From contig RPQN01000019.1 of the NCBI GenBank assembly GCA_003819715.1, positions 1 to 46,702 on the forward strand: DNA of 46,702 bases. The letters are read 5' to 3'. Made by a program: the position numbers and the translations under genes. Below the pieces are notes generated by a model. It ran no database searches. It saw nothing but the letters and a program-made list of their open reading frames with translations, and was not told the origin of the DNA. Source of the DNA: Ignavibacteriota bacterium (GTDB taxonomy: Bacteria > Bacteroidota > Ignavibacteria > UBA10030). Positions 5,471 to 43,275 of the stretch are shown one piece after another (the stretch's first letter is position 1; each line of letters opens with the position of its first letter).

Positions 5471-6016
5471 ATGAATAAACAAATCAGGAAACGACTGGTC
5501 AGGTTCTATAATGTATTTGATGCTGACGGTGACGGCTACATTACGCAGGTGGATGCGGAACGATCGCTTGGCAACCTTGCCGCATTGCGGGGTTATAAAA
5601 AAGGGTCTCCCGACTATGAGTCTTTCCGGGCGGCCTATTTAATATATTGGAACGATCTCCTGGAAGCCACGGACTTGGACCAGAACTCAGAGATCACGGA
5701 GGAAGAATGGCTGCAGTATCATGAAGAGTTATTAACCAATAAGTCCAAGGCGATGCAGACCATCCTGCCTTCGGTTTTTGCCCTGTTCGACGTCATGGAC
5801 GCAGACGGGAATGGATCCATCAGCATGACTGAGTACAGGAATTTCATGCATGCGTTCGGCGTACCCGATAAATGGATTGGTGACGAGGTATTCCAGAAGC
5901 TCGATATAAACAAGGACGGGTCGATTTCCAAAAAGGAAATGGGCGAGGTGGTAGACCAGATGTATTTTAATCCGGATCCGTCCTGTCCCGGTAACTATCT
6001 GTTCGGGATACTCTAG
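5471..6016 (+). CDS. EF-hand calcium-binding protein with four EF-hand loops
   Basis: Loops DADGDGYITQVD, DLDQNSEITEEE, DADGNGSISMTE and DINKDGSISKKE in 181 aa. No signal peptide, so calerythrin/sarcoplasmic-type layout. Confidence 0.93.
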   Translation: MNKQIRKRLVRFYNVFDADGDGYITQVDAERSLGNLAALRGYKKGSPDYESFRAAYLIYWNDLLEATDLDQNSEITEEEWLQYHEELLTNKSKAMQTILPSVFALFDVMDADGNGSISMTEYRNFMHAFGVPDKWIGDEVFQKLDINKDGSISKKEMGEVVDQMYFNPDPSCPGNYLFGIL

Positions 6017-14923: not shown

Positions 14924-14938
14924 CCGTTCCTTTTTATT

Positions 14939-18927: not shown

Positions 18928-18973
18928 TAGTCGAAAACCATGATTTTCTCATTACACTTCTCGAAGGGTTCGT

Positions 18974-20251: not shown

Positions 20252-20269
20252 ATCTGCTCCCTTATGAGT

Positions 20270-22537: not shown

Positions 22538-22555
22538 GAGAATCGCCCGCCTCTC

Positions 22556-25500: not shown

Positions 25501-25621
25501 TTGCATCCGAGAAATAGCGGAATGTGATTCGCACGGCCGGCTGAGCATACAAATTCGTAAGGCAGAACAGCGAAAGAATGACCGCAGGGATGAGAGCAGA
25601 GTTCAACAAAGATTTATGCAT
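22556..25621 (-). CDS. T9SS-exported GH13 alpha-amylase-family protein (glycogen-binding domain, Ig-like domains, GH13, T9SS CTD)
   Basis: NFPGTFNNWGSNTGG; GH13 motifs ILDVTPNHTS, LDGYRFDVYWGPH, LLLAEDDG; C-terminal LYQNYPNPFNPQTVIQFDLPEQSRVKIFVYNVLGKEIAEL...SSGVYFVRLETGSASEPMKIVLMK. Confidence 0.93.
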   Translation of the reverse strand: MHKSLLNSALIPAVILSLFCLTNLYAQPAVRITFRYFSDANYPRVNFPGTFNNWGSNTGGTIAAGDVSQADSLEAASGCWMKTISLPFGSYQYKIYRQRSVTPTDWSWIIDPLNRSVLTESNGIQNSVLEVNSLVLFQFCAYPYTVEAIASGSKFVCRTNAPSLSAGIFQPTGNPAATLTASVDGTVIANPSLYYNTASGIFTYKPAGLADGTHTFTVSVSDGSTARTDSVRFEVRARPVQIQTPAFTTWKPAYITAGIVLKPDGSGLDSLVSSVTLSVNGRGKTASVLNGSFIDTTAIQEGQNWIVVSTLLGRDSVLVTRLVNHTPWAAVTATSSGGSVLLDASASTDPDSQALSNFRWLDDPLQPLGLNGQTAVQVSIVKPPVPGEYYFGLIVTDPDGHGDTTRSSFVVHDGGSITNPTIASNPDWVKKGRIYFLFPKAVSSTGTLNAAALRLPYIKDLGFNIVWMMPVMKNASPINQQSGPGYNIVDFYNVAPEYGTNQDFKNFITQAHALGLKVILDVTPNHTSRFHPWSVDAHANKQKSPYWNWYQHTIIPHNDNGLGQSLDADGFNYYSGFSDQLLNYNWTDIDARQEMINVYKYWIKEFGLDGYRFDVYWGPHRRYGEQVMGKPVRDALKHIKPDILLLAEDDGTGSGTEVIYADNTSGGVNGGVDAAYDFKLYFNQVRGFEFNTSAVNSLDGDITNGGFYPGPNSEYMRFMESQDEDRIAYFYSSGGSLDAATTFMKTMPMASTIFTVPGLPMIWNGQEVGKGYGDNNFDSRRRGTIDWSFSGKSLLTPHYQKLAQIRGQYKAFSTHSMRRLRSTDGLVYAYTRPTAYEDGIVAVNFGSTPSTVSITISVADLGGWVNDGGNYIVSDLYNNTTTPIHFSNGAAILNLSLPSYGSAICILADSAKRLQIPSGMERGRSDIAPGKLQLYQNYPNPFNPQTVIQFDLPEQSRVKIFVYNVLGKEIAELTNTLYSAGVHQVMWNGKTDAGVQASSGVYFVRLETGSASEPMKIVLMK

Positions 25622-25629
25622 GATTCACA

Positions 25630-27516
25630 TTACGGCAATGGAACCGTCTCCGGGTTTTCAATATTGATCCAATCAAACTGCCGCGGTACAACCGGTGTCG
25701 CAAACATTCTTCCGCCGAAACCAAGAATCCGGAATGTCACCATGGGAAGCGGGGTGAGTTTGATCCGGTCGAGGCGCTCCTGAAAAATAGAAAAGCCCAT
25801 CTGCCGTCCGAGTTTGGCAATAAACATATTCAGGACACCCCTTTGTTTCAGCTTCAGAACCTCGTCTTTCGCTGCGTTGAATCGTGAAGCAAATCCGGTA
25901 TCGCTTGCCTCAAAAGGATTTTTTTTATCAACAAGCTCGAACATCATGGGTTCATGGTGAAGGGTGATCGGACCATATCGTTCGCCTATCTTCATGTTCC
26001 AGGCAATGGTCCCGACCGGCTGACGGCTGAAGATCGGAAAATATTCCGTCAGTCCTCCCGTAACTTTTGCACGCGGATCGTTCGACCATTTTGCGATCGT
26101 CTCCTCAAACGATTTCTTTTGATCCAGATCGCTGATGGCACCGCTCATGTCCGATACCGTCGCTGTTCGCAGTTCGCGGATCCTGACCATCGGCACTGCC
26201 AGAGTCGAATCCCCTTGCTTCATGAACGACCAGATCTCCGCATCGGAACACGTGATGGTATTCCTCATGTCCTGTTTCAACTGCTCTGCCAGAAAATGCT
26301 GGGACCACATTTCTATCTTCCGGCTCACCGCCGGCACCTGATCGAGCTGCCGGTCGATAGCGGTTTGAGACAGGAGCTCCTGCTGAGTCCATATCTTCAA
26401 TTGGGCATTCAATTTTGCAAATATCCGACGCGGTTCACGATCGGTTATTTGAAACCCTGATGATGCCAGCCGATCCAGGACATTCTCCAGTGACCACGAT
26501 TCTTTCCCTGCGACCGCCAATGGTTCATGCAGAGATTGTTCACAGATGCGCCGAACCCGGCGTTCAATATCCGGAGTAATCGTATACACGGAATCCACCG
26601 GTTCTTCCGCCAGAATGGTCGACAGAGATCGGCTGAGCACTCTTATGAATTCCGGCCGTCCGTACCCCTTTTTATCTTTCAGGATTTCATCGAGAAATAT
26701 ATCGAGCCGTTCTTTCTCTTTCCGTGCCCGGAGGATTGTTTCGACCTTATTGAGGATTTGTTCCGGCTGCATTGAAGCGTACCGGGCATTCCGTTTTATC
26801 GACTTGACGGTGATAATATAGAATCCTTCTCCGGCGGACAACACGGGAGAAACCCTCCCCATTTTCAATTGATATGCAGCATCTTCGATCACCGGGTCTG
26901 CTTCACCCCAAATTAACGTCGCCGTATCACGCAGAGCGGAAATGGTTGAATCGATGCGGAGTCGACTGATGCTGTTTGCATTCCTGAGACGCGCTTTGAT
27001 AAACCGGGCTTCCTCTTCTTTCTCAAAGAACAAATACTGGAGCTTCAGCTCACGCTGCGCACGCCATATTCCCAAATCCCGTTCTCGGGATGTCACCGTT
27101 ACTTTTCGGATTATTTCCCGGCGGTACAGCTCATCCCGTGAAAGCATCTTTCGAACATTTGCATTCGCCTGTTCATAGACGGTGTCTTTGTCGAGTTTAC
27201 GTTCGAGCGCCTCTTGAGCGAGCAATTTCTCCGCGATGATGGAATACAGCAGTTCCTGTTTCTCAATATCCTGCTGTGCCTGAACGCGGCCTCCAATACC
27301 GGCCGTCAGTTCATAGCGTTCGATAAATTCAGATTCCGATATAAAGATCTTCCCCGCCTTCGCCACATACGAATCCGTTCCAGAATTCCCCTGGCAATGA
27401 CCGACGGGGACAATCATGAAAGCGCCCAGCGTCAACAAGATCAAGCCGGTCCATCTCCGCCTCTTGCGGCCGCTCTTTGTACAATCGAACGCTCTATGGT
27501 TCTTTATGATCATCAT
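25630..27516 (-). CDS. Parvulin-type (PpiC/SurA-like) peptidyl-prolyl isomerase, periplasmic
   Basis: Signal peptide; SurA-like N-terminal helical region; IRNANS...GEADPVIEDAAYQLKMGRVSPVLSAGEGFYIITVKSI, then a second SWSNDPRAKVTGGLTEYFPIFSRQPVGTIAWNMKIGERYGPITLHHEPMMFELVDKKNP-like rotamase segment. Confidence 0.8.
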   Translation of the reverse strand: MMIIKNHRAFDCTKSGRKRRRWTGLILLTLGAFMIVPVGHCQGNSGTDSYVAKAGKIFISESEFIERYELTAGIGGRVQAQQDIEKQELLYSIIAEKLLAQEALERKLDKDTVYEQANANVRKMLSRDELYRREIIRKVTVTSRERDLGIWRAQRELKLQYLFFEKEEEARFIKARLRNANSISRLRIDSTISALRDTATLIWGEADPVIEDAAYQLKMGRVSPVLSAGEGFYIITVKSIKRNARYASMQPEQILNKVETILRARKEKERLDIFLDEILKDKKGYGRPEFIRVLSRSLSTILAEEPVDSVYTITPDIERRVRRICEQSLHEPLAVAGKESWSLENVLDRLASSGFQITDREPRRIFAKLNAQLKIWTQQELLSQTAIDRQLDQVPAVSRKIEMWSQHFLAEQLKQDMRNTITCSDAEIWSFMKQGDSTLAVPMVRIRELRTATVSDMSGAISDLDQKKSFEETIAKWSNDPRAKVTGGLTEYFPIFSRQPVGTIAWNMKIGERYGPITLHHEPMMFELVDKKNPFEASDTGFASRFNAAKDEVLKLKQRGVLNMFIAKLGRQMGFSIFQERLDRIKLTPLPMVTFRILGFGGRMFATPVVPRQFDWINIENPETVPLP

Positions 27517-27718: not shown

Positions 27719-29689
27719 ATGGCGAACGCTGCATTCTCACGTAAAAAAGCGGTTCTCTTCAGCCTTGTTCCAACGGGCCTTCTTCTGGTACTGCTCGTTG
27801 CGACGGAATTTCTCCTCCGGGTTGCCGTTCCATCACTGGACCATCCTTTCGTTCGCGAAGTCAATGCGGACGGGATCGAATGGGTCCAGATCAACCGGCG
27901 GTATCTCACAAAATATTTTCCTGCAAACCAAATCGTGGTCCCAGAGCTCAGAGCGTCGGTATTCAGAAAAGTGAAGAAGCCGAGTACTTTTCGCATCGTC
28001 TGTCTGGGAAGCTCTTCGATGTTCGGCACCCCGTATGAAATGAACGCAAACATTGCTGCAATCGTCCGGAAGCAGCTCAGACATCTTTCCCCGGAAAAGG
28101 ATATTGAGGTAATCAACTTAGGCGCATCTGCAATAAACAGCAATGTCATCCTCGATCTCTTTAAGCAGTTTATTCGTTTCCAGCCCGATCTCGTTCTCAT
28201 GTATATGGGACACAATGAATTCTACGGCCCTGACGGTGTCGGTGCTTCCTTGCTTCAGCGTGAATTCCCGTCCACCATTCCTTTCATTTATTCTCTTCGC
28301 GATCTGCGGATCTACAGACTGTTCCAAGGACTTCTGACTCCGCATGGAACACCGGACGATCACCAGGAACGGAATCTGATGAAAGTGGTCTCACGAAATA
28401 CCGCCGTTTCTCTCGCATCATCCGATGCCGAACGCGTTCTCAATCTTTTTCAATCTAATCTGGGATCGATCATTCACCTCTGTCAGGACAAACACCTGCC
28501 TCTCATTGTGAGCGACCTGACCTCAAACCTGGATTTTCCGCCATTCCTTTCAGACAGCATCCGGAGTATTCCTCACTGGCAAAATTTCTGCAGCGGCGTC
28601 AGGAACGAATTCCAGCTGGGTTCATTTCATCTCCTTCGCGATACCTTGAGCATCCTCCGGCAGCAGGATTCAACAAATGCATTCGTCAACTACTGGCTCG
28701 GTCAAACCTATCGTAAACTCGGACAGCCTCAAACCGGGCGTTCCATGCTCGTTCTTGCACGGGACAACGATCTCCTGAAATTCCGGGCGCCAACGGCAAT
28801 CAACACCATCATCCGGAAACTTTGTGCATCCAACGAGGTCCCATTTTTTTCTTCCGATTCCCTGTTCGCTTCGCTGAGTCCGGAGGGTATCGCCGGCAGG
28901 AATCTTTTCTGGGAACATCTTCATCCGACCGCTGAAGGCTATTACCGGATTGCGACTCAATTTGTTCATACCATACTCCGCTCAAATTATTTCCCGGGCT
29001 CGATGCGATCCACCTCTTCTCTTCTTCCCTGGAACACCGATTCCTTAAGCATTTGCTGGCTGGACCTTTCGTATGCCGACATTTCCATGCGCAACCTGAC
29101 GACCAACTGGCCGTTCAGTGAATATACGGTCTCATCGGTGGTCATGCAGAATGCCGGTGACCAGCTCCGTCAAATCGCACTTGATACCTATATGTCAAAA
29201 TACTCGTGGAGCGAAGGATGTTACAAGTCCGCATTCGTTCTTCAGCGTTCAGGAAATCTCCGCGCTGCTCAAACAACGTACGAAGCACTGCTCGAGGATT
29301 ATCCCTTCAGTTACTATGCACACTACCTGCTCGGGGTGTTGCACAAAGAATCAAACAACCTTCTAGAATCCATTCATCATTACCGGCGTGCGATCGAGCT
29401 GAACCCGGATTATCCGTATGCACGAATCGATCTCGGCCTGCTCGAAGTGAATCAGGGCAAATTCACGGATGCCGCGCAGGAACTTCAAACGGCCCTCACA
29501 CTTATTGGTGACAAAAATATGGTTGTGGAAAAAGCGACCATTTATTATGGACTGTCCGCAATCTCGGCGAACAACGGCGATATGAACAAGGCCCTCGACT
29601 ATGTGGAACAATCGCTCCAGCTGAATCCCCGCTATGACGCTGCCCGGAATCTCCGCAGCAATCTCCTCAAAGTGATCGGAGCGCATTAA
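27719..29689 (+). CDS. Membrane-anchored SGNH/GDSL-like hydrolase fused to C-terminal TPR repeats
   Basis: N-terminal TM segment; FRIVCLGSSSMFG (block I), NLGASAINS, YMGHNEFYGPDGVG (block III-like), FWEHLHPTAEGYYRIA (Asp-His-like block V), then TPRs (SIHHYRRAIELNPDYPYARIDLGLLEVNQGKFTDAAQEL). Confidence 0.8.
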   Translation: MANAAFSRKKAVLFSLVPTGLLLVLLVATEFLLRVAVPSLDHPFVREVNADGIEWVQINRRYLTKYFPANQIVVPELRASVFRKVKKPSTFRIVCLGSSSMFGTPYEMNANIAAIVRKQLRHLSPEKDIEVINLGASAINSNVILDLFKQFIRFQPDLVLMYMGHNEFYGPDGVGASLLQREFPSTIPFIYSLRDLRIYRLFQGLLTPHGTPDDHQERNLMKVVSRNTAVSLASSDAERVLNLFQSNLGSIIHLCQDKHLPLIVSDLTSNLDFPPFLSDSIRSIPHWQNFCSGVRNEFQLGSFHLLRDTLSILRQQDSTNAFVNYWLGQTYRKLGQPQTGRSMLVLARDNDLLKFRAPTAINTIIRKLCASNEVPFFSSDSLFASLSPEGIAGRNLFWEHLHPTAEGYYRIATQFVHTILRSNYFPGSMRSTSSLLPWNTDSLSICWLDLSYADISMRNLTTNWPFSEYTVSSVVMQNAGDQLRQIALDTYMSKYSWSEGCYKSAFVLQRSGNLRAAQTTYEALLEDYPFSYYAHYLLGVLHKESNNLLESIHHYRRAIELNPDYPYARIDLGLLEVNQGKFTDAAQELQTALTLIGDKNMVVEKATIYYGLSAISANNGDMNKALDYVEQSLQLNPRYDAARNLRSNLLKVIGAH

Positions 29690-29797: not shown

Positions 29798-32572
29798 TTA
29801 CTTCAACAGAAGCATCTTCTTCGTGCTGACGAATTGTCCAGCATTGATTTGATAGAAATAGACGCCGCTCGAGAGCTTCGAAGCATCAAATGTCACCGAA
29901 TAATTGCCGGAGACCTGCTTCTGATTCACGAGTGTTGCGACCTGCTGACCGATCAGGTTGTAGACATGAAGCGTCACATTCGCATCCTGCGGGATAGAAT
30001 ACCGTATGACCGTCGATGGATTGAACGGATTGGGATAGTTCTGATCCAGCGCAAATGTTTTTGCCACTCCGGCGATCTGTTCAGCAACACCGGTCGGTAT
30101 CTTGTTTGTGAAGTCCCAACGATTGTACTTCCCGGGGTTGATGCTGCCGAACTGAGTATTGAGAGTCGCGGTCGGCTGCGTATCGTCGATATTCTCGAGG
30201 TGATTCAACCCAAACGCAGTTTCATTATCCGAACCGCCGATACCAAACTTAAACACCTGCCCCACCGTGTTGGTGGTCGAATAGGCAATCTGAATGGTAT
30301 AGATGGTGTCATTTGCGACTGCATCACCATGCGTTCCATCATCCCACATTTTATGGTATCGGTTGGTATCCGCCACCATAAAATTATCCCATGCGGCCCA
30401 ACCGCCGGTTGCGGGATCTGCTGCGGGTCCGTTAAATCCGACACCCCATGACTTAATACTGTCCGCCTTGAGTACGGAGCGGGTTCCCTGTATCGCCGCC
30501 AGGCTGTCGCCAGCCTTCAGCTGATAATACGCCGGCCGGAGGTCCACCGTCCACTTCACCGTTACCGCCTTGGAGAGCTTTCGCTGGTTTTCAAAATACG
30601 GCTGACGCCGGGGATCAGACACACTGACGACGTTGTCACTGATGGTCATGGTCTTGGAGGTCATACTGATCTGGCGTCGTTCCTGCTCAGCAGCGACGAG
30701 ACCGGTAAATCCGAAGTTGAAATAATATTCACGGATATCCGTGTTGTTTTTGTGCAGGTAATACTGGTAATCAAGGAATTTGTTCAGGGCACTGACTATT
30801 TTCGTTGTGCCGCTGTACCGGTTGGTCAATCCCTGCCGCACGAGTGTCAGGGTCCGCTGCGAATCAGCCGTCGCAAAGAATCCCGCCTGTACCGTGATCG
30901 TATCGCCGATGGTAAAGCTTTGTTTTTGAATTGCCGTCGTCATATCGACATTAAATGTGATATTGATCGTATCGGCATTTGCGCGCGCGATGGGTTTGTC
31001 ATTGTTGTACCAGACCCATTGCAGCGTCGTATCGGATTTCCCTATCGGAATAGAAAATTGCCGGTTTGGTTTTCCGCCCTGCAATTCATCATTGCCCCAG
31101 TTCCAGCCGATGAGGAATTTATAATCGATTTTCTGTCCGACCGTGACCGCACTCTTTCTGAATTTGAGACGGCCTGAGAAAAACGTGCCCGGAGGAATGG
31201 TATACTGTCCGCCGCCATCGCCCGGAGGAATTTCCTGTTTCAGATAGAACGTGCTTCCCCACGAGAGATCGTCGCCGTCGTTTCCGCCGCCGCGGACGCC
31301 GACAGAATCCTTATCCGCTGCAGTCCAGCCGAACGAGCCGTTATTCATGACGTTCTGCATATTCACACGGAAATACACATTGATGAACGAATCCGGTGCA
31401 GCAGTCCACGGCCTGAAATATTGCGGCTGCGGTGTCTGCGCATTGTTCCAGAATTGAACGGGGAACGTCGTGTCTTTCGCAGCCACGATGTAGTTACGAT
31501 GGCCCTGGTTCAGGAAGCCATCAGAAAGATCTTTTTCCCATCCGCCGCCGCCGATCCTGATTTTGTATTTCAATGTATCGCCGACATTGACCTTGAAGGT
31601 GGTCTTCCAATAGTCGCCGCCGATATTGGTCAGGGCCTTTCCTGAGCCCCAGCCGGTCAGAGCGGTGTCTGCGGAACCCGTGCCGCTGCCCACCAACACG
31701 ACATTATAACTCGAGTTGACGGTATCTGGTACGGTTGCAGTATTGACCACAAATGTGAGGTTTGACGCAGTGGGAGCTGCACTATATTGTGGTGCTGCAG
31801 CCCAATGTGTTGCCACCCGGATTTTATCGATATCTGCGCTCGGTGTTGCAGTACCAGTAGCATTTCCTTGTCTGAATGCCAATCGCGTGATATTCGTAAC
31901 TGGTTCGGCCTGCGTACCAGAATAAAACGATACCGCGTCCGCAGCAGGCATGCCGCCGGTAAGACTTGGATTAATCCATAATCGAGAGGTATCATTCGTC
32001 GCACCATCGACAAATTCATAATCAAATACGACAAGATAGGTTGTCCCTGGCATATATTCCGTGGGTGCCCACGTTGCACTTGGCGAACCAGAAACTCGAA
32101 TACCTAACAGAAAACCATTTGTCGCACCTTTTTTGATACAAAGCCTTCCAACGTATGCGGTTGTATTTTCAGTTGGGAAAAATCCTGAAAAATACTCACC
32201 ACTAGACGAAGTGGTTACAGCAAGCTTTGCGGTATCAACAACGTTGATAAGCATCGCTGCGTACACTGTTCCCGATGTCTGCGATGTAAACTCGCGCATG
32301 ATATCTTCCGCACTTGCAGAAGGAGCCGTGAGTGTAATTTTACCATCATTGGTACCCGGGAAATTATATCCTGTATAGGTCAAATCCCCGGCAGAAACCT
32401 GAATGGCAAGGTTCCCTGCTCCACTAAAGGCAGTCCAGTTTCCCCCGTTGACAACTGTCAATTGTCCAGGAGCGTAATTAAAGTTCTCCTGGAAAAGTAC
32501 CTGTGCTGATGCCGGAACTCCAAAGAGGAGCAGCACCATCAGCACGGTGAAAAATAAAAAAATGTGTTTCAT
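29798..32572 (-). CDS. SusE/F-like starch-binding multidomain protein with T9SS CTD
   Basis: Signal peptide; N-terminal LamG-like region; beta-sandwich repeats (DTLKYKIRIGGGGWEKDLSDGFLNQGHRNYIV; KIDYKFLIGWNWGNDELQGGKPNRQFSIPIGKSDTTLQWVWYNNDKP; YHKMWDDGTHGDAVANDTIYTIQI); CTD FALDQNYPNPFNPSTVIRYSIPQDANVTLHVYNLIGQQVATL...GVYFYQINAGQFVSTKKMLLLK. Confidence 0.85.
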   Translation of the reverse strand: MKHIFLFFTVLMVLLLFGVPASAQVLFQENFNYAPGQLTVVNGGNWTAFSGAGNLAIQVSAGDLTYTGYNFPGTNDGKITLTAPSASAEDIMREFTSQTSGTVYAAMLINVVDTAKLAVTTSSSGEYFSGFFPTENTTAYVGRLCIKKGATNGFLLGIRVSGSPSATWAPTEYMPGTTYLVVFDYEFVDGATNDTSRLWINPSLTGGMPAADAVSFYSGTQAEPVTNITRLAFRQGNATGTATPSADIDKIRVATHWAAAPQYSAAPTASNLTFVVNTATVPDTVNSSYNVVLVGSGTGSADTALTGWGSGKALTNIGGDYWKTTFKVNVGDTLKYKIRIGGGGWEKDLSDGFLNQGHRNYIVAAKDTTFPVQFWNNAQTPQPQYFRPWTAAPDSFINVYFRVNMQNVMNNGSFGWTAADKDSVGVRGGGNDGDDLSWGSTFYLKQEIPPGDGGGQYTIPPGTFFSGRLKFRKSAVTVGQKIDYKFLIGWNWGNDELQGGKPNRQFSIPIGKSDTTLQWVWYNNDKPIARANADTINITFNVDMTTAIQKQSFTIGDTITVQAGFFATADSQRTLTLVRQGLTNRYSGTTKIVSALNKFLDYQYYLHKNNTDIREYYFNFGFTGLVAAEQERRQISMTSKTMTISDNVVSVSDPRRQPYFENQRKLSKAVTVKWTVDLRPAYYQLKAGDSLAAIQGTRSVLKADSIKSWGVGFNGPAADPATGGWAAWDNFMVADTNRYHKMWDDGTHGDAVANDTIYTIQIAYSTTNTVGQVFKFGIGGSDNETAFGLNHLENIDDTQPTATLNTQFGSINPGKYNRWDFTNKIPTGVAEQIAGVAKTFALDQNYPNPFNPSTVIRYSIPQDANVTLHVYNLIGQQVATLVNQKQVSGNYSVTFDASKLSSGVYFYQINAGQFVSTKKMLLLK

Positions 32573-32724
32573 AGATATTTCCTTTCTATGACGACCGTCT
32601 CACGGAACCACGAGTCATGAGAGAGCCTTGTTAATTGATGTGTTTATTAAAAGAAAATGATTTGTTGATGCCTGACTCTTCCCTCCTCCTTTCATCAATA
32701 AACATTTTATACCCCAGTGAAATA

Positions 32725-33780
32725 TTAAAACCTGATTGATACTGCTATCGTATTAAGATTTCCAAAATAACCGAATTTGTTCATGGCATAATCAACTTCC
32801 AACGCCCCCAATCCTTCCAGTGAATAGCGAAATCCGGCTCCGAAGGAGATGCCCTGCTGGTTCGTACTTTGCGCGTATCCTCCGCCGTCCGTCAGGACGG
32901 AGGCATAACCCGAGCGCAGGGAAAGCATATTCATCCACACCACCTCACCGCCAATATTGATGGACGTGTTATTGTCGTTCGGACGCAGCGCATCAACGGC
33001 GACGGTCAACGTGATGTCTTCATTTTTCACGACATCCATTGCCGTCCCGACACGAAAGAGCAGCGGCATCGGCCAGGGATCGGTTTTGAGTTTTCCGACG
33101 AGTGTTTTGTTCGAGCCGGAATGTGCCGGATCGATGTCGATCCGCTGGTATAAATCTTTTCCGTCAAGCGTCATATCACCGCCAAAATTCGACATCGACA
33201 TTCCAAGTCTCATGTTATTAAAGTCGGTCACGAAGAGAAGGCCCAGATCAAACGTCATACTGCTCGCCGATTCGTTCCAGATGCGCTGGCTGACATATTT
33301 TGCGGTTCCGCCGATGGAGAACCGGTCCGTCAACCGGCGCGAATAGGTGAGGCCGATCGCAAGATCATTGGCAGACCACCGCTGGCCGTTGCCGTCCGGG
33401 GCATCGACGGTCGTGACTTCTTCTTCGCCGTAATCGAGCTGCGTGAGACTTACCCCCACGCTGTTCGCCCCGTCAAAATTGACCATGAATCCAAACCAGC
33501 GAAATTTTGATCCGACCAGCCATTCGGAATTTGAGAACACAAATTCCGAATGAGTGGATTGCGAGACTGCTCCCGGATTCCAGAACAGCGACGTGACGTC
33601 TTCAGAAGAGGCCACATAGGCCCCTCCCATGGCGATCGCCCGGGGCCCGACGGCAATGCCAAGAAACTGAGCTGCGGTGGTTCCCACTTTTGATTGCGCC
33701 TGGACGGGAGAGAAGGTCGATGCCGCACCAATCGCAAGAAGGAGAAACCGCTGGAGGTGGTATAAGGTCTTTATTCGCAT
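32725..33780 (-). CDS. PorV/PorQ-family outer-membrane beta-barrel protein
   Basis: Signal peptide; AAQFLGIAVGPRAIAMGGAYVASSEDVTSLFWNPGAVSQ characteristic N-terminus; C-terminal beta strands ending VDYAMNKFGYFGNLNTIAVSIRF. Confidence 0.88.
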   Translation of the reverse strand: MRIKTLYHLQRFLLLAIGAASTFSPVQAQSKVGTTAAQFLGIAVGPRAIAMGGAYVASSEDVTSLFWNPGAVSQSTHSEFVFSNSEWLVGSKFRWFGFMVNFDGANSVGVSLTQLDYGEEEVTTVDAPDGNGQRWSANDLAIGLTYSRRLTDRFSIGGTAKYVSQRIWNESASSMTFDLGLLFVTDFNNMRLGMSMSNFGGDMTLDGKDLYQRIDIDPAHSGSNKTLVGKLKTDPWPMPLLFRVGTAMDVVKNEDITLTVAVDALRPNDNNTSINIGGEVVWMNMLSLRSGYASVLTDGGGYAQSTNQQGISFGAGFRYSLEGLGALEVDYAMNKFGYFGNLNTIAVSIRF

Positions 33781-33788
33781 GGTGTTCT

Positions 33789-36700
33789 CTACTTTATAAT
33801 TGCAAATTTACCGGTCATGGTTCCCGCTGTCGATTCAACCACGTAATAGTACACCCCGTAGGCAACATCGAGATTTTCCTTCGTCTTCACATTCCACGAA
33901 ACAGTTCCGTCTTCGATATTTCCATCATGACGAAGCGTCATAATATGATCACCCCGGGATGTAAATATCTGAATGGATGCCTGGGACGGAACATGGATGA
34001 AGTCAATTTTCCGCTGGCCCCGGCCGCTGGTCACGCCCGGATTCAGGGGCAATTCAAATGTCGACGCCGTGACGTACGGATTGGGCACCACCCTTACCCG
34101 GCGAAGACTGGCTGACGCCGCCGCTTCGTCCACTTTCGCCGGCACAGGAGTAAAGAGGTAATTATCCCCCTGACGGAACGGCTTTGTCGTCTTGATCGAC
34201 AGTTTATCTCCGGCTCCCAGCGCATAAACGGTATCGATCGGATCGTTTTGTTTGTTGGAAAATTTTATATCCCAGGTATAGATGTAATTTCCGAGAGGTT
34301 CTTTTTCCAGGAACACCAGCTCATCCTGAGGAGAAACTTTCCCATTCGCATCGATATCCGCATAAATGAATTTTATGAATGTACTGTCCGTCTCGTTGTA
34401 CACACGGAAATTCACCGGCAGTGCATCGGGCTGAAGATCCGGATCGCCGGTCGATGTGTCGACAATCGAATTTGAGAAAATAATGGAGTAATCACTCGGT
34501 TTCTGGATGCCCTTGTAGAATTTATTTCCCACCTGAACGTTGAGCGGAGTAAATCCAAAGCGATAGGCATCTTTCCCTGTCCATACCGACAATGAATCAA
34601 TGCGCTGCGCCTGCCATTGGTTTCTGAATGAAAGCTGAATGCCGTCGAAAATATCCGCGTCCTTGGCCTCTGAGACGTACGGCGATCCGTAGATATTGGA
34701 ACTGCGATAAACGGGATAATACTGATACGTTATGGTATATCTTCCTGCAGGCATACTCCCGGGAGAGGCGCCCCGGATGTTGCCCCGCAAGGTATCCAGA
34801 ATATAATTCGAAGCCGGAATCGCCGTGCTGGAACTGTTCCTGACGACGACCGATGAACGAACCAGGTTCGTGCGCTCCAGGGTCACGAGCGTGGTATCGA
34901 GCGCGTAAAAGATTTCGGTGATATCGTTCATATCCCTGACGGAATAGAAACTCGTGGTCCGCGTTGCCTCGGTGGAATCAAACGCATCGATCAATCCGTT
35001 GTCGTTGTTGTCAATGCCATCGATCCGCGAATCGAGGAATTCGAGCCGGTATGTATCCCGGGTTATTTTATTGGGATCGAGTACTTCTGAATAAATATCT
35101 CCCGTTCCGTAGTGCACCGTGGCACTCAGCTTTACTCCATTCGGCGGGGGAACATATCCTGCAACCTTCGTATTCGGTACAACAACGGCAACATTGGGGT
35201 CGTGTGTAATTTCTCCGCTCGTGGAAATTGTGACGAACTTTGAATTCTCCGACGGGAAAATGCCGAGGTAATTGTCTCCTTTATCATACGCGACCAGGGC
35301 ATAATAATACCGTCTGCCGTTCTGGACATCATTGTCAACATAACTGTGCTGCAGCCCATTATCGCTTCCCAGATAAAATGCATAACCCGCTGCGACGGTG
35401 AACGCATCTCCGGTTGCCTGAAAATATCCCTGGACTCCATCGACGATATCGACCTGCACCAGCGGACGGTATCCCTGCGGCGATCCCGATCCATCGGTAA
35501 TCGTGTAGATGTCTCTGAAATCCGGATCGGTCGATTTATAAAGTTTGTACCCCTCGAAGTCTTTCGTGAGGAGAACAGGATCCACCGATGCTTCCGCCTT
35601 TCGATCCCAGTAGAGGGTTACCTGTTTGTCGCCGGCGACTGCGGTCAGCGTCGGCTTATCCGGCGGCTGCGGGAATTGATAATTCGCATCGTAGATCTGC
35701 TGAACGGTTTGCTTATTTTTCAGAAGATCGGCAATGTCATCGTCGACGCTGCCGCCTCTGCCGCCGCCGTACACCAGCGCGAGAGAAAATCGTTCTGTCG
35801 AATGAGACAGCAGCGGAAAATAACCTGATCCATAGATAAAATCACCGTCCTCGCCGGCTGTCGGTCTGTTGTTCACGATGGACGCAGGAACATCGAAAAA
35901 TCCCGGAGCGAGATTCGTCCACATCGATTCGTCATCACCCAGACGGACCTGGTTCGACGGCGCAAAGTAATAGAAGTTCGTCAAACCGATCTGATCCGAT
36001 TCGCGGACATCGGTCTTGTCAATGTGCGGTTCGCCGGGCAATCCCGTGTCGTTGCCGTTGGCATCATAGCCGGAGGTCGGAATTCCGTCGCCCTCTCCGA
36101 GATCACCGGTATTGGGAATTCCATCTCTGCCGACATCGTCGTGAGCAATATTCCAATTCGTGTTATTATCGATCAGGTCATTCCGGCGCTCATCGATCAT
36201 GCTGGTCGGGCTTGTCCCATTCCCTGTTATAAAATCGGTGTAATGCAGCGGCCTCGTTTGATCAATGAGGGGAGGATTTGCCGGATTCTTCGAGCGTTTG
36301 AGCTGGCGATAGTGGACATAATAATTCTCATCAATAATGCCGTCGAAATCGTTATCCACGCCGTCGTACGCATTCGGATTGACATAGTCCACCTTGATCG
36401 CGCCAAAGGTCGGATCAATCACGGTCCTCTGCAGCACGTTGCCTTCTGCAACCTTTGTTATTCCGGGTTTGATCCAGGTCGACAATCCCCGGGTGGTGAT
36501 CAGGAGAGAATCTCCAGGAGCGACCGACGGAACCGTATAAAGAAACCTGCTGTAATCATTCCGGATAAGAACCAGCTGCATGCCGGGAGTAATGAGCGTC
36601 GAATCAAAACTTGCCGACGTAAATTTCGGCGTGAGCTGTCCCACGGCGGACGAATCGGCATCGCCGTCGTTGTCAATGCCGTCAAACGGATTGCCCGGAC

Positions 36701-37628
36701 TTTCGAGAAATGCATAACCGACCATGCCGACGGTGCCGACCCACAACGGATTTAAAATTTGTCTTCCGTAATCGCCGGTATAGGTGATATTATCTTTCGC
36801 GCTGTAAAACGACCAGTCATCTGCATATTCGCGATAATCTTCCGTAGAAGTCACGCCGACGTACGTGCCGACCAGCATTCCAAACACGGCGCGGTTATAC
36901 GTTGTCGTCCCGGTATTGGTGATTTCGTACAGCCAGAAAATATTATCCTTGGCAAGAAACTGGCTCCACTGCATTGCCCGCACGCTCATAACCAGCGCCA
37001 TCCCGTTGCGCTGCGGCTTCGTGGAATCCGGTTTAAATGCAACTCCGAGCGTGTTGTTGGATGCTTTATTGAACCGCTCATCATTGTTATCATCCATCAC
37101 AAAGTACGTTTCAAGGTCGGCATTCGCCCGCTTTCCGAAATAGCCGTTCCAGGAGCCTCTCCATCCGGGATCTTTTGTATCATTTAATTTGTCGGGCCAG
37201 AACGGAGGCCACGAGTTCGGATCGTTGCTCATCGCCACGCTTTGCTGATTGGTATTGAAATATCCGCCGTCAGGTTGGAACGTCCACCACTTGCTGGTCA
37301 ACGGGTCCTGGTCCTGAATCTGCGCAGGCCTCTCGACGAAGCATGTGGCAACCGAATGAAACGTTTTGCCGGCGTAATTAATTTCAGCACCGACGAGCGG
37401 CGTCACGTCGCCGATATATCCGTCGTTGTCATTCCTCCACGCACCGCGCTTGCCCTTGGCCGCAGGTTGTCCAATGACTCCCCAGTTCCCGAAGACCGTC
37501 CTCACCTGATTGCCGTTCATATACGCACTTCGCTGAAATTGGGGACCGCTCTGGCCGTAGGACGTTGAGCAGAGTTCTCCGAGAACGACCGAGAGGATAA
37601 AAAGAGGGAACAGAATTTTTTTCATCAT
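33789..37628 (-). CDS. Very large secreted protein (1279 aa) with fn3-like domain, DxDNDxDGxxD motifs and divergent T9SS-like CTD
   Basis: Signal peptide MMKKILFPLFILSVVLGELCSTSYGQ; repeated PFDGIDNDGDADSS, YDGVDNDFDGIIDE, RIDGIDNNDNGLIDAFD; C-terminus RVRVVPNPYVTASTFELPLN...IQIFTSRGDHIMTLRHDGN...GVYYYVVESTAGTMTGKFAIIK. Confidence 0.85.
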   Translation of the reverse strand: MMKKILFPLFILSVVLGELCSTSYGQSGPQFQRSAYMNGNQVRTVFGNWGVIGQPAAKGKRGAWRNDNDGYIGDVTPLVGAEINYAGKTFHSVATCFVERPAQIQDQDPLTSKWWTFQPDGGYFNTNQQSVAMSNDPNSWPPFWPDKLNDTKDPGWRGSWNGYFGKRANADLETYFVMDDNNDERFNKASNNTLGVAFKPDSTKPQRNGMALVMSVRAMQWSQFLAKDNIFWLYEITNTGTTTYNRAVFGMLVGTYVGVTSTEDYREYADDWSFYSAKDNITYTGDYGRQILNPLWVGTVGMVGYAFLESPGNPFDGIDNDGDADSSAVGQLTPKFTSASFDSTLITPGMQLVLIRNDYSRFLYTVPSVAPGDSLLITTRGLSTWIKPGITKVAEGNVLQRTVIDPTFGAIKVDYVNPNAYDGVDNDFDGIIDENYYVHYRQLKRSKNPANPPLIDQTRPLHYTDFITGNGTSPTSMIDERRNDLIDNNTNWNIAHDDVGRDGIPNTGDLGEGDGIPTSGYDANGNDTGLPGEPHIDKTDVRESDQIGLTNFYYFAPSNQVRLGDDESMWTNLAPGFFDVPASIVNNRPTAGEDGDFIYGSGYFPLLSHSTERFSLALVYGGGRGGSVDDDIADLLKNKQTVQQIYDANYQFPQPPDKPTLTAVAGDKQVTLYWDRKAEASVDPVLLTKDFEGYKLYKSTDPDFRDIYTITDGSGSPQGYRPLVQVDIVDGVQGYFQATGDAFTVAAGYAFYLGSDNGLQHSYVDNDVQNGRRYYYALVAYDKGDNYLGIFPSENSKFVTISTSGEITHDPNVAVVVPNTKVAGYVPPPNGVKLSATVHYGTGDIYSEVLDPNKITRDTYRLEFLDSRIDGIDNNDNGLIDAFDSTEATRTTSFYSVRDMNDITEIFYALDTTLVTLERTNLVRSSVVVRNSSSTAIPASNYILDTLRGNIRGASPGSMPAGRYTITYQYYPVYRSSNIYGSPYVSEAKDADIFDGIQLSFRNQWQAQRIDSLSVWTGKDAYRFGFTPLNVQVGNKFYKGIQKPSDYSIIFSNSIVDTSTGDPDLQPDALPVNFRVYNETDSTFIKFIYADIDANGKVSPQDELVFLEKEPLGNYIYTWDIKFSNKQNDPIDTVYALGAGDKLSIKTTKPFRQGDNYLFTPVPAKVDEAAASASLRRVRVVPNPYVTASTFELPLNPGVTSGRGQRKIDFIHVPSQASIQIFTSRGDHIMTLRHDGNIEDGTVSWNVKTKENLDVAYGVYYYVVESTAGTMTGKFAIIK

Positions 37629-40399
37629 GATCCAAACTCCAGGTTCACGCCGAATTCGATTCTGCGTGGTTCCGAATAAAATCTTGGAATGCGAAAGAAT
37701 TCATCGAGTGTATTGACATATTCGTGGGGATTCGATGCGCGCGCAGTGGCTTCATCCGTGGTAAATCCCGCACGGCCTGTATCGTTAAACACATTGACTT
37801 CGTTGCGCGTATCCAGGAGATTGAAGACGCGGGCAAAAAACACAACCCGCACCGAACTGATATCGGCCTCATAGAATGAACGAAGGTCGATGTTGAAATA
37901 GTTCGGTTTGATTTCACTGTTGGTCAGGATGGCGGAAATATCCTGCGTATTCCTCGGGGTGTAGGGTGTGCCGCTCCCGTAACTGCCGATGGTGCTGACC
38001 CCCCAGTGTTTCCCGGAATAGTTCACCGAGACATTCAACGTGTGGCGTTGATCCCATCCCAGAGGCGTCAGTTGAACTTCCGGCCGGGCCCCTCCTGCGA
38101 TCGCATTACGTGCCTCCTGAGGATCCGATGCACTGCCCTTTGCCACCTGGAAGGTATAATCCAGCCGGGCGCTTACTCCGGAAGAAATCCGTTTATCCAT
38201 CGTGAGCACGATGCCTTTGACAAAACCAAAATCGCTGTTCACATACCGGCTGTATCTGGTTGCCGTCCCAAACACGAGCAGTTCCTCCCCCCGTGTTCCG
38301 GCTAAGTTCCGGATGTCCCGCAGATACGCTGTCACATCGATTGAAAGATCTTCTGTCAATTGCTGCTGAACGCCAAGTTCACCGTTAATGGTCTGTTCAG
38401 GTTTCAGGTCTGCGTTGCCGATGATCCCCTGATTGCCGCTCCCCTGAGAGACTTTGAAAAACGGATTTTCATACAACAGTTCGAACCGCGGTACCTGGAA
38501 AAAATAGCCGTAAGAAAAATGAACGATCCCGCGGGCAGTAATGGGGAACGATACGCCGAGCCGCGGACTGACTGCGGACTTCGCCGAGGCGCGGTTGTAC
38601 CAGTACGCTGCGCGCTCTTCATAGGTCCTGTCCGTCTCTCCGGGATCCTGCACGCCGTTGCCGTTGACATCATGGAAGCGGTTATTCGGCTTGATCGGAT
38701 TGAAAATACTCGGGTCCGTCGGATCCGCGAGGACGACGCCGTCCGGCTGAAAGTAATCGAACCGGACGCCGAGGTTGACGATGATGTCTTTGAATTCCAT
38801 TTTGTCCTGAATGTACCCCGAGAACTCCGTGGGACGATGATCATAGACGTCATGCGATGTGGAAGAAACATCGAGGACCTGGGTCTGGATAAATGGACTC
38901 GCCGTGGCGAGGTTGATATCCGATTGCGCCTGGATCGGTTGAAGCTGGATGTTTTCGTACGTCAGATGGTGGTTCCGGTATTCGGCCCCGACTTTGAACA
39001 TATGGGTCTCAGAGACCTGACTGGTCAGATCAAACTTGAACAGCGCCGTGGTGGTCTCGCGGTGAAACCGGGCGAGATCGGTACCGCCGGTCAGCGCGCT
39101 GTAGGAATCATTGCTCTGGAACAGTTTCGGGTGAACATACCGGGGATCATGAATATCTTCATAGAGATAGTATTTAAAATCCTTGATAAAGTAAGAACCG
39201 CCTAATGTATAGAAGGTGGAGTTGCTCAACGAGTGGTTCAACTGGGCGATGACGGTATTACTGGTATTGTAGTTGTTGCCAATGCCGTCCGGATTATAAA
39301 AATATGCGCGATCGTACGCTTTGGCGATTGAATAATCATAGATATAATTTGTCGTGAGTTTGATCAGCGGCGTTATTCTCCAGGTCAGTTTTCCCTGTCC
39401 ATAATTTCGTTTGCTCCAGTTCATGGGCACGACCGAACTGTCGCCCATGCCGGAGACATCCCGAGATAAATGAAAAACGCCGGCGCTGTCGGTGTAGGAA
39501 ATATTGCTCGGATTGAACCGGCGGTATCCATTGAGATATCCATTAAAATAAATAGCGCGTCCGTTGACAAAAAAGGTCAGGTCGTTACTGAGCAGCGGGC
39601 CGCTGAGGTTCGCTTCGATATTGCGAACATTCGTTGGTTTGAATCCCGGGCCCGGAAAAAGTGTTTTGTCCGCCGTCGCATAATCACCGCCGTAAAGGCC
39701 GATTCCCCCTGAATATTTTTCGTTCCCTTCTTTTGTTGAAATGTTCACAATACCCGACATGGCCTGACCATACTCTGCATTAAACGCGCCGGAGATTACC
39801 TGAAGTTCCTGGACGAGGCTCTTGTTTACTTCGACGACCTGGGCGCCATCATATGCATCCGTCACGGGAACACCGTCGATAAAATACGCCACTTCACCGC
39901 TCCGCCCGCCGCGAAGGCTTCCTGCGACAAACCCTGCCTGCAAATTGACCACCGCTCCTATCTCAGACACCGGCAATGATGCAATATCGTTGCCGCTCAC
40001 AATCGCTGTTGTTGCGGTGAGGTCTTTTTGCACGAGCGGGCGCTCCGCAACGACGACCACTTCCTGACCCACCTGGAGAACGGTCTCTGAAATTTCCACA
40101 TCGATGGTCGTGGTCAGGTCGCCCTGAACGCGGACACCCGTGACTTTTGACGAAGTATAACCGACCAGAGTCACCACCACATCGTATTCTCTTGGCGGGA
40201 TGTTGATCATAAAATACTTCCCTTCGATGTCGGTGGTACTCCCGAGCGATGTTCCATCGAGCCGGACATTTGCCCCGATAATCGGTTCGCCGGTTTTTTT
40301 ATCTTTCACGACCCCGGTGATCTTACCCGTGGAGCCCCCGAGCGCGAACGACGAAATCAGCGCGACGAGCAAAAGAGAATGCGCTATGCGTGTGGACAT
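37625..40399 (-). CDS. TonB-dependent receptor (SusC/CirA-like) with N-terminal carboxypeptidase-regulatory-like domain
   Basis: KITGVVKDKKTGEPIIGANVRLDGTSLGSTTDIEGKYFMINIPPREYDVVVTLVGY; plug AYFIDGVPVTDAYDGAQVVEVNKSLVQELQVISGAFNAEYGQAMSGIVNISTKEG; terminal aromatic beta-barrel strand. 4-bp overlap with the next gene. Confidence 0.94.
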   Translation of the reverse strand: MSTRIAHSLLLVALISSFALGGSTGKITGVVKDKKTGEPIIGANVRLDGTSLGSTTDIEGKYFMINIPPREYDVVVTLVGYTSSKVTGVRVQGDLTTTIDVEISETVLQVGQEVVVVAERPLVQKDLTATTAIVSGNDIASLPVSEIGAVVNLQAGFVAGSLRGGRSGEVAYFIDGVPVTDAYDGAQVVEVNKSLVQELQVISGAFNAEYGQAMSGIVNISTKEGNEKYSGGIGLYGGDYATADKTLFPGPGFKPTNVRNIEANLSGPLLSNDLTFFVNGRAIYFNGYLNGYRRFNPSNISYTDSAGVFHLSRDVSGMGDSSVVPMNWSKRNYGQGKLTWRITPLIKLTTNYIYDYSIAKAYDRAYFYNPDGIGNNYNTSNTVIAQLNHSLSNSTFYTLGGSYFIKDFKYYLYEDIHDPRYVHPKLFQSNDSYSALTGGTDLARFHRETTTALFKFDLTSQVSETHMFKVGAEYRNHHLTYENIQLQPIQAQSDINLATASPFIQTQVLDVSSTSHDVYDHRPTEFSGYIQDKMEFKDIIVNLGVRFDYFQPDGVVLADPTDPSIFNPIKPNNRFHDVNGNGVQDPGETDRTYEERAAYWYNRASAKSAVSPRLGVSFPITARGIVHFSYGYFFQVPRFELLYENPFFKVSQGSGNQGIIGNADLKPEQTINGELGVQQQLTEDLSIDVTAYLRDIRNLAGTRGEELLVFGTATRYSRYVNSDFGFVKGIVLTMDKRISSGVSARLDYTFQVAKGSASDPQEARNAIAGGARPEVQLTPLGWDQRHTLNVSVNYSGKHWGVSTIGSYGSGTPYTPRNTQDISAILTNSEIKPNYFNIDLRSFYEADISSVRVVFFARVFNLLDTRNEVNVFNDTGRAGFTTDEATARASNPHEYVNTLDEFFRIPRFYSEPRRIEFGVNLEFGS

Positions 40400-40449: not shown

Positions 40450-41481
40450 TTAAACCAACTTTGTGATCTTGCCCATGGGAAGCGTCGACCTGCGGACAAT
40501 CAGTGTCGGTTCGAACGTTTTATGATAAATCGGAAGACCCGGGTTCTCGAACCGGTCCAGGAGCCGTTCGACCGTCAGCATGCCCATCTCGGACATCGGC
40601 TGGAGCATCGAGGTCAAACCGAGCGGGCCGGAAAGTTCCAGATCGTCAAATCCGATAACGGCAATATCCCGCGGGCAGCGCAGACCCATCTCGGCAATTG
40701 CGGCAAGCGCACCGTACGCCTGAATATCGCTCGCTGCAAAAACTGCAGTCGGCCGCTTCGGACCAAGTTTCAACAGCTCCTTCATCATCTCATAACCGTT
40801 CTCTCTGGTAAATCCGTCAAGGTATTCCGATTTCGTTTTCAGGACCAGCGAATTGGAAATTTTTTTATGCGCATCCATCATCGCCATCTGGTACCCCTTG
40901 AACCGGTCTTTTGCCGGCACGCTTCTCAGGTTTGCATTCAGCATGGCGATCCTCGTATGACCCAGGTCCAGGAGATGTTTTGTGGCGGTGTACCCGCCCC
41001 GGACATTATTCACGGCAATGGAATCGAATTTTTTGTGGTACGTATCCACAAGGACCATGGGAAGCTTCTTGAAGAGCGCAATCTTCGCCAGCTGGTCCGG
41101 GATCTTCATGGAACAGAGGACGATGCCGTCGACGCGATGACGATGGATATTGTTGCGGAGCGTTTCGGTAATCTGATCCGGGTGATTGATCCCGAGTAAA
41201 ATAATACTGACGTCGAGATCCGACAGTCGTTTTTGAATTCCGCGGAGAATTTCGAGGAAGAAAAATGTGGCAAAAAATGGAATGGTGAAGAGAATGGAAT
41301 TGGTCCGCTGACGGGCAAGTCCGATGGCAAAGGGATGAGGCCGGTAATTTAATTTTGAAACAACCTGCAGAACGCGTTTCCGGGTTTTCTGCGAGACGCT
41401 TGCATGCTTATTGAGGACACGCGACACCGTTCCGATTCCCACACTTGCCTGCTTTGCAACATCATAAATCGTAGCCGTCAT
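40450..41481 (-). CDS. LacI-family transcriptional regulator
   Basis: MTATIYDVAKQASVGIGTVSRVLNKHASVSQKTRKRVLQVVSKLNYRPHPFAIGLARQRTNSI HTH plus periplasmic-binding-like effector domain (AVIGFDDLELSGPLGLTSM). Confidence 0.97.
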   Translation of the reverse strand: MTATIYDVAKQASVGIGTVSRVLNKHASVSQKTRKRVLQVVSKLNYRPHPFAIGLARQRTNSILFTIPFFATFFFLEILRGIQKRLSDLDVSIILLGINHPDQITETLRNNIHRHRVDGIVLCSMKIPDQLAKIALFKKLPMVLVDTYHKKFDSIAVNNVRGGYTATKHLLDLGHTRIAMLNANLRSVPAKDRFKGYQMAMMDAHKKISNSLVLKTKSEYLDGFTRENGYEMMKELLKLGPKRPTAVFAASDIQAYGALAAIAEMGLRCPRDIAVIGFDDLELSGPLGLTSMLQPMSEMGMLTVERLLDRFENPGLPIYHKTFEPTLIVRRSTLPMGKITKLV

Positions 41482-41504: not shown

Positions 41505-41518
41505 TGGAAGCGCTTCCA
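41505..41518. promoter_or_regulatory. Probable LacI-family operator
   Basis: TGGAAGCGCTTCCA is a perfect 14-bp palindrome with central CG, 23 bp upstream of the lacI-family start codon. Confidence 0.8.
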
Positions 41519-41739: not shown

Positions 41740-43275
41740 CTACTTGACCGGCGCCAGATTTAACCGGTCCGAATTGGTTCTCCCGTATAACGCGGACAGT
41801 TCATATAACCGCGATGCCGCCCACGGTTCAACCTGTTCCCACGTAAACCGCCATTCCCAATTTCCATCAACGGTGCCGGGGAAATTCATACGGCCTTCGC
41901 TCCCCAATCCCAGGACATCCTGAAACGGGATAATGGCCATATCCGCAACCGATTGAAGCGCCAGCTTCATTAAATCCCAATGAACTTCAGTGCCGTTGGT
42001 CTTGCAATACCGCCGGACAAAATCGCGTTCATGTTCCGTCGCTTTTTCGTACCATCCCAGGGTCGTATCATTATCGTGCGTGCCGGTATAGACAACAAAA
42101 TTCTTCTGATAGGTATGCGGAAGGAAATTGTCCTGGGGATTGGAGGAGAATGCAAACTGCAGCACTTTCATTCCGGGGAAACCAAATGATTCACGCAGAG
42201 CGGTGACTTCCGGCGTCACCACGCCCAGATCTTCTGCAATAATCGGCAATGTTCCCAGTTTCTTGATGATGGCGTTGAAGAGGTCCCCTCCCGGACCCTT
42301 GACCCATTTTCCAACACGCGCTGTCTTTTCCTTCGCCGGAATCCTCCAATACGCTTCAAATCCTCTAAAATGATCGATCCGGAGAATGTCAAAGAGCTCA
42401 AATGTTTTCCTGAACCGTTCAATCCACCATTGATATTTCTGCTGCTTCATAACATCCCAGCGATACAAGGGATTCCCCCACCGCTGGCCGTCTTCGCTGA
42501 AATAATCCGGTGGAACACCTGCAACGACGAACGGCTTTCCATCCCTGTCCAGTGTGAATGCCTCCTGGTTGGACCAAACATCCGCACTGTGATTTGCGAC
42601 GAAGATGGGAATATCGCCGACCAATTTGATATTTCGATCGTTCGCATGCTTCTTCAATTTCTTCCAATGCCGGAAAAAGCACCATTGCATAAATTTATGG
42701 TAATTCACCTGCGCTTTTCGTTCTTCTGCCGCGTGCCTGAGGGCCGACGGTTTTCGATGGACCAGGTCGCGGTCCCAGACAATCCACTCTTTTCCGCCGT
42801 AATGGTCGTTCAACGCCTGGAACATGGCATAATCGTCCAGCCAGTTTTTTTCTTCCTTGCAAAATGAGTCGAACTGCTGCCGGTCCGCTTTATTCCCCTG
42901 TTCAAAAAAGGTCTGCGCCGCTTTCCAGAGCATGTTCATGCGAAAGACGGTGACCTCATGATACTTGACTCGGATTTTTGAACTCTGGATAAATGACTCA
43001 AGATCCTGCGGCACCAGCCAGCCATGGGAGAGCAGTTCCTCCAGGTCAATAAGCAGGGGGTTTCCTGCAAACGCGGAAAATGACATGTAAGGGGAATTCG
43101 CCATGCCGGCGGGCCCCAGGGGAAGCATTTGCCAGAGCGATTGACCTGCGGAAGATAACCAATCGATGAATTGATATGCTGAAGTGCCCAGATCTCCGGA
43201 TCCGAACCGGCCCGGCAACGATGTGGGGTGCAACAGAATTCCGCTACTTCGAGCAAATTGCATTTCTCGCCTCAT
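41740..43275 (-). CDS. malQ: 4-alpha-glucanotransferase (GH77, amylomaltase)
   Basis: RSSGILLHPTSLPGRFGSGDLG...LWQMLPLGPAGMANSPYMSFSAFAGNPLLI; DILRIDHFRGFEAYWRIP; IAEDLGVVTPEV; YTGTHDNDTTLGWY. Confidence 0.97.
   Translation of the reverse strand: MRREMQFARSSGILLHPTSLPGRFGSGDLGTSAYQFIDWLSSAGQSLWQMLPLGPAGMANSPYMSFSAFAGNPLLIDLEELLSHGWLVPQDLESFIQSSKIRVKYHEVTVFRMNMLWKAAQTFFEQGNKADRQQFDSFCKEEKNWLDDYAMFQALNDHYGGKEWIVWDRDLVHRKPSALRHAAEERKAQVNYHKFMQWCFFRHWKKLKKHANDRNIKLVGDIPIFVANHSADVWSNQEAFTLDRDGKPFVVAGVPPDYFSEDGQRWGNPLYRWDVMKQQKYQWWIERFRKTFELFDILRIDHFRGFEAYWRIPAKEKTARVGKWVKGPGGDLFNAIIKKLGTLPIIAEDLGVVTPEVTALRESFGFPGMKVLQFAFSSNPQDNFLPHTYQKNFVVYTGTHDNDTTLGWYEKATEHERDFVRRYCKTNGTEVHWDLMKLALQSVADMAIIPFQDVLGLGSEGRMNFPGTVDGNWEWRFTWEQVEPWAASRLYELSALYGRTNSDRLNLAPVK

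Follow-up and report, generated by a model that had tools for sequence, protein, structure and literature searches.

A conserved trio of TonB-dependent receptor, giant exported protein and PorV/PorQ-family barrel, probably a nutrient-uptake machine of a type not described before

What does a TonB-dependent receptor do beside a giant exported protein and a PorV-like barrel, in a starch locus devoid of SusD? The question is raised by a contig of 46,702 nucleotides from an Ignavibacteriota bacterium (hereafter, the whole stretch is called the window), in which an earlier note, made from the sequence alone, had described a Sus-type starch uptake system with the giant protein in the place of SusD. 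The module is encoded on the minus strand and is transcribed in the order LacI/PurR-family regulator (40450–41481; PF00356 and PF13377), TonB-dependent receptor (37625–40399; 924 aa; CarboxypepD_reg and Plug), giant exported protein (33789–37628; 1279 aa; a signal peptide and a body without family match), PorV/PorQ-family outer-membrane barrel (32725–33780; 351 aa; PF19572/NF033709) and a type IX secretion system (T9SS) type A cargo protein with CBM20-like domains and a Por_Secre_tail (29798–32572; 924 aa). The receptor and giant genes overlap by 4 bp (37625–37628) and 8 bp (33781–33788) separate the giant from the PorV-family gene; the open reading frame coordinates confirm the gene set and the spacing given in the earlier note exactly. 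The module also reaches upstream of the receptor, where the regulator is its first gene, 50 bp away, preceded by a LacI-type operator, the perfect palindrome TGGAAGCGCTTCCA (41505–41518, no strand).

The conserved operator, the surrounding GH77, GH13 and GH57 genes and the CBM20-like cargo tie the window copy to starch, and the starch setting proposed earlier is thereby borne out. The upstream neighbour is a 4-alpha-glucanotransferase (GH77; 41740–43275, minus strand; PF02446, 617 bits), and a starch cluster (10824–27516, minus strand) contains, by Pfam matches, a T9SS-tailed GH13, a GH57 with CBM20, two further GH13, two MFS transporters, a GH78-like 6-hairpin protein and a peptidyl-prolyl isomerase (PPIase). 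The operator has no second exact match in the window, and the same palindrome TGGAANCGCTTCCA is found again in 14 related loci, close to where LacI begins. In a few cases it falls just inside the longest LacI frame called by our script, so those frames may be over-extended. Of the 61 orthologue-like loci (window included), 26 have a LacI homologue on the upstream side of the trio, compared to 4 of 45 other giants. Homologues of the downstream protein, searched with the T9SS tail removed, show a similar distribution (50/61, window included, versus 7/45). This last protein had been called SusE/F-like, a label that the families do not support: it has no match to SusE or SusF and carries a T9SS tail and CBM20-like modules instead. 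Its orthologue in locus L037 contains four CBM_20 domains, and Foldseek relates its structural model, which is good only past residue 240 of the modelled stretch, to the CBM20 of cyclodextrin glucanotransferases (CGTase), glucoamylase and STBD1.

Several other genes of the window deserve mention. SurA/PPIC-type PPIases, which may help giant folding or export, recur beside trios (window 25630–27516; L021:2393–4102; L022:13559–15139, a weak match), and a GDSL-like/TPR protein (window 27719–29689) recurs with a PPIase downstream of the trio in several orthologous loci, L028, L030 and L093 among them. Further away, a cohesin-domain protein with a T9SS tail (2958–4853) lies near an EF-hand protein passing the Dockerin_1 cut-off (5471–6016), possibly a cohesin-dockerin pair on the cell surface, and a Kir-type bacterial inward-rectifier potassium channel is encoded at 1685–2503.

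Judged by its plug, barrel and N-terminal carboxypeptidase-like domain, the receptor is a TonB-dependent receptor; it matches CarboxypepD_reg families, with Plug slightly under the cut-off and partial matches to several TonB receptor models. The same profile comparisons place it outside the SusC/RagA subfamily. More specifically, it scores 66.7 bits against the SusC/RagA model TIGR04056 (cut-off 368), the other trio receptors score 42–97 bits, best over the N-terminal part, and the SusC signature (TIGR04057) is absent from the trio receptors. For receptors linked to SusD within the same class, the scores are 658 and 732 bits and the signature is present.

The observation that nothing in the locus resembles SusD extends to the whole genome (94.8% complete), in which neither PF07980 nor PF14322 has a match; a Bacteroides positive control was matched. 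Because the receptor is not a SusC, this lack is unremarkable. To relate the giant to SusD more broadly, we used 297 genomes of the phylum together with a class sample; two candidates per genome were scored for giants, which makes the giant counts lower bounds. Both were present in 57 phylum genomes, the giant only in 51, SusD only in 102 and neither in 87, so that SusD occurs in 57 of the 108 giant-bearing genomes and a correlation of the giant with SusD absence does not appear (Fisher p = 0.90 for the phylum, p = 0.17 for the class sample). Five or more SusD matches are found in 10/108 giant genomes versus 82/189 others (p = 1.6e-10), a scarcity of giants in SusD-rich genomes that follows class membership and is therefore not independent evidence. 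In the closed genome G153, a trio (L126) coexists with a SusCD pair (L159). Within the class, the family f24 (G148, G156, G176 and G240) has 4–8 SusD matches per genome, yielded no giant and is the one clade that looks Bacteroides-like. Replacement of SusD, deduced as a general rule from its absence, is thus rejected since giant and SusD coexist. With a non-SusC receptor, SusCD occurring separately in the same class and no negative association, the picture of a Sus system with SusD exchanged is unsupported, and the label 'SusD-less Sus' is misleading.

The giant itself is not an accidental reading frame, as the chance of such a stop-free codon run is about 1e-15, and its homologues number in the hundreds. 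It consists of a signal peptide, recognised by eye, a large beta-rich body with acidic DxDxDG-like motifs that includes an FnIII-like segment (residues ~650–790), and a T9SS-type C-terminal domain (~1165–1279). No lipobox, which SusD and BtuG have, was seen by eye. Conserved positions are rich in glycine, aspartate and aromatic residues. The body has no family match in Pfam, NCBIfam or the PDB sequences, and no carbohydrate-binding family was recognised in it. A confident AF2 model of residues 26–1180 built from 65 aligned sequences (pLDDT 88.4, pTM 0.78) predicts a beta-rich, multidomain fold, for which the Foldseek matches from the PDB were all modular, of FnIII/Ig type, at query TM-scores of 0.05–0.08. 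Two assignments were accordingly discarded: membership of a known family, and a SusD fold, which is alpha-helical. Profile comparison recovers the FnIII-like part in divergent partners as well (E 7e-25 and 3e-12, and a weaker 7e-6). It is not matched in one partner type (A9), which leaves a single superfamily for all partners unproven.

We then considered how far the three genes travel together. A scan of genome contigs yielded at least 454 relatives. The best 80 of these come from Ignavibacteriae/Bacteroidetes, KSB1, Neomarinimicrobiota, Calditrichota, Cloacimonetes and one Gemmatimonadota-labelled MAG. These 80 named-MAG loci are top matches and mostly represent a single orthologous locus, which is why two further samples with less bias were drawn. 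In seven closed genomes, all 16 giants stand in the same-strand order receptor, giant, PorV, and in sister-class closed genomes the trio is present at 10/10 sampled giants, one having about 520 bp between receptor and giant. Among the 106 giants examined, drawn from the best 80 and other collected loci, 90 are flanked immediately by the receptor on the upstream side and by PorV on the downstream side, and 15 are cut by contig ends; the sole exception not due to contig ends is L019 (1–4750), where PorV precedes the giant and the contig end has removed whatever preceded PorV. Taken singly, PorV lies directly 3' of the giant in 95/106 (all but one of the remainder being contig-end cut) and the receptor lies upstream in all testable loci except one. 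Furthermore, in BLAST-negative genomes the profile finds divergent proteins of 1100–1550 aa that likewise sit between a receptor and a PorV. The triplets thus recur across related genomes, and these results support a modular trio conserved in this lineage, as the earlier note had supposed, and beyond it. Their repeated joint occurrence across several bacterial groups makes it probable that the three genes form a nutrient-uptake machine of a type not described before. The module is real, conserved and apparently undescribed: no earlier description was found in the open-access literature, and subscription journals might hold one.

Some loci depart from the standard form. The receptor frame is split into two open reading frames, by sequencing error or decay, in L045 (4796–7978) and in L125 (3724–6540, a closed genome), the rest of the trio being intact. 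In L131, L133 and L137, PorV directly follows the receptor with no giant between, and in two of these a separate tailed protein of 692–699 aa is encoded nearby.

The window's own genome contains 11 receptor-partner-PorV loci. Four are complete giant trios (the window and loci C68, C39 and C96), and seven have shorter partners of 729–1107 aa (C65, C62, C79, C172, C116, C129 and C105), whose BLAST similarity to the giant is confined to the region near the C-terminus; in C79 and C172 a contig end truncates the receptor, and C79 also has a small open reading frame between partner and PorV. Nearest-paralogue agreement between genomes was calculated for the components, with 92 of 244 expected by chance. 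Receptor and giant agree in 185/244 cases and PorV and giant in 145/244, values reached in 0 of 500 permutations. Agreement so far over chance indicates that the modules are mostly inherited as units.

These numbers bear on the strongest alternative, namely that the giant is a surface-anchored scaffold or polysaccharide binder that sits near the receptor and concentrates substrate or enzymes there, without contact or lid function, the genes being clustered by a common substrate. A modular beta-rich fold containing FnIII is typical of adhesins and binding proteins, and the adjoining CBM20-like T9SS cargo shows that surface binding belongs to the locus. However, functional clustering alone rarely yields a fixed order across many loci, phyla and paralogues, and a receptor-giant paralogue agreement of twice chance speaks against it. 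We regard this explanation as a serious contender, though less likely than not.

How the giant is held at the surface can be approached through its barrel and its C-terminal domain. The window barrel belongs to the PorV/PorQ family (NF033709, 200 bits, cut-off 90), ranks PorQ (113 bits) above PorV2 (71) and PorV (68), and falls below both canonical models (68.5 bits for NF033710, cut-off 250; 113 bits for NF033711, cut-off 220). By these scores it is a paralogue nearer PorQ than PorV and not the housekeeping protein. C-terminal domains of giants and of shorter partners are at least as similar to those of PorZ/PorU as to the type A sorting model (TIGR04183, cut-off 23), to which the window giant scores 14.8 bits and three of four tested shorter partners 25–30 bits. 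The resemblance to PorZ/PorU is weak for the window giant (E 0.0014 and 0.002) and solid for shorter partners (L138, E 1.8e-10; L144, E 5.9e-10). PorU and PorZ are kept on the surface by PorV and PorQ, respectively (PMC5562754), SprB is anchored by SprF (PMC9143113), and type B cargo is both handled and anchored by a barrel whose gene usually lies immediately 3' of the cargo gene (PMC12618676, PMC9143113). Because its C-terminal domain resembles domains held by PorQ/PorV barrels, the giant is probably anchored by the neighbouring barrel, and a dedicated barrel holding it at the surface would be the simplest reading by analogy. Gene order and co-inheritance may reflect a dependence of the giant on the adjacent barrel in the manner of SprB and SprF. 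The genome has 20 PorV-family matches above cut-off, of which 15 follow a giant-like partner (one with a small open reading frame between); together with the PorZ/PorU-like C-terminal domain, this makes the PorV paralogue look dedicated to the giant, as had been proposed. The SprA translocon gene is present in the genome.

Alternatively, the PorV paralogue could be a substrate-specific secretion shuttle only, with the giant released or attached to LPS like type A cargo. In F. johnsoniae all type A cargo indeed uses PorV as a recycled shuttle (PMC12618676), but such a role needs one PorV where this genome has 20, with 15 downstream of a giant-like partner, and the C-terminal domain resembles PorZ/PorU more than it does the type A model. 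We consider the shuttle unlikely. Finally, a module that exports, assembles or senses, as a surface layer or signalling receptor might, instead of importing nutrients could suit those genomes with few trios and no carbohydrate enzymes recognised alongside with the references used (L127–L129), but it is very improbable for a window copy embedded in alpha-glucan genes under a LacI operator, next to which no anti-sigma/sigma pair was seen.

We therefore favour, at roughly 55%, the reading that the window locus is the starch version of a widespread, co-inherited three-part uptake module, in which the giant is anchored by its barrel beside the receptor and captures or gates substrate. Against this reading stand the lack of a lipobox and of a recognised carbohydrate-binding family in the giant, the weak PorZ/PorU similarity of the window giant's C-terminal domain, and the few loci in which receptor and PorV have no giant between them. 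Uptake as the general role of the trio is suggested by the receptor class, and barrel anchoring, receptor contact, ligand capture and transport are what we infer from the above. More specifically, LacI would sense an alpha-glucan product and release the operon. The giant would be exported via Sec and then the type IX system, and its C-terminal domain would dock on its own PorV/PorQ-like barrel, as PorZ does on PorQ and SprB on SprF. Docking would set the beta-rich body beside the receptor, a gated and TonB-powered pore, where it would capture or gate maltooligosaccharides. The CBM20-like cargo and a secreted GH13 amylase would bind and cut starch, and the MFS transporters and the GH13, GH57 and GH77 enzymes would complete its use. 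The giant would thereby play the part of the SusD or BtuG lids elsewhere. Such a lid is plausible, and BtuG on BtuB is a precedent for one that is not a SusD (PMC10404256).

The trio shares features with several known systems. Like SusC-SusD (RagA-RagB), it has the gene for a surface partner directly after the TonB receptor gene, many paralogues per genome and, here, a starch locus with surface binding proteins and an amylase. The differences from SusC-SusD, which occurs separately in the same class, are that neither model nor signature identifies the trio receptor as a SusC, that a dedicated PorV/PorQ barrel joins the pair, and that the partner is not an alpha-helical lipoprotein but a predicted beta-rich giant without a lipobox, for which T9SS export is proposed. 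BtuB-BtuG likewise pairs a TonB receptor with a non-SusD partner, and a surface location is predicted for the giant; BtuG, however, is a lipoprotein without a T9SS signal or barrel partner, and the giant's lid role is a proposal. SprB-SprF and PG1035-PorP (type B) combine a large cargo with a dedicated barrel, whereas in the trio the barrel is of the PorV/PorQ and not the PorP/SprF family, the C-terminal domain is type A/PorZ-like, and a TonB receptor is present. The PorZ-PorQ and PorU-PorV attachment complex has a similar C-terminal domain and barrel families (PMC5562754), whereas the trio lacks a sortase or PorZ body, occurs in substrate-specific loci and has a receptor partner.

Taken further, the trio may represent a second family of lidded TonB transporters, built independently and used by Bacteroidota outside Bacteroidia and their relatives. 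A T9SS-delivered partner would be clamped by its own PorV/PorQ barrel, and one genome could hold about a dozen such modules for different substrates, parallel to SusCD. We hold this broader proposal tentatively, at somewhat less than even odds. If true, uptake in abundant uncultured Ignavibacteria, Marinimicrobia, KSB1, Calditrichota and sister classes would use a receptor system missed by annotation: the giant has no family name, the barrel carries a secretion-machinery label, and locus finders based on SusCD pass over the receptor. The type IX system would acquire a new function, the assembly of transporter complexes, and the abundance of PorV-like genes in the window's genome would be explained. 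Some of the closed genomes may belong to cultivated relatives, and the trio is a simple search key for substrate-specific uptake loci.
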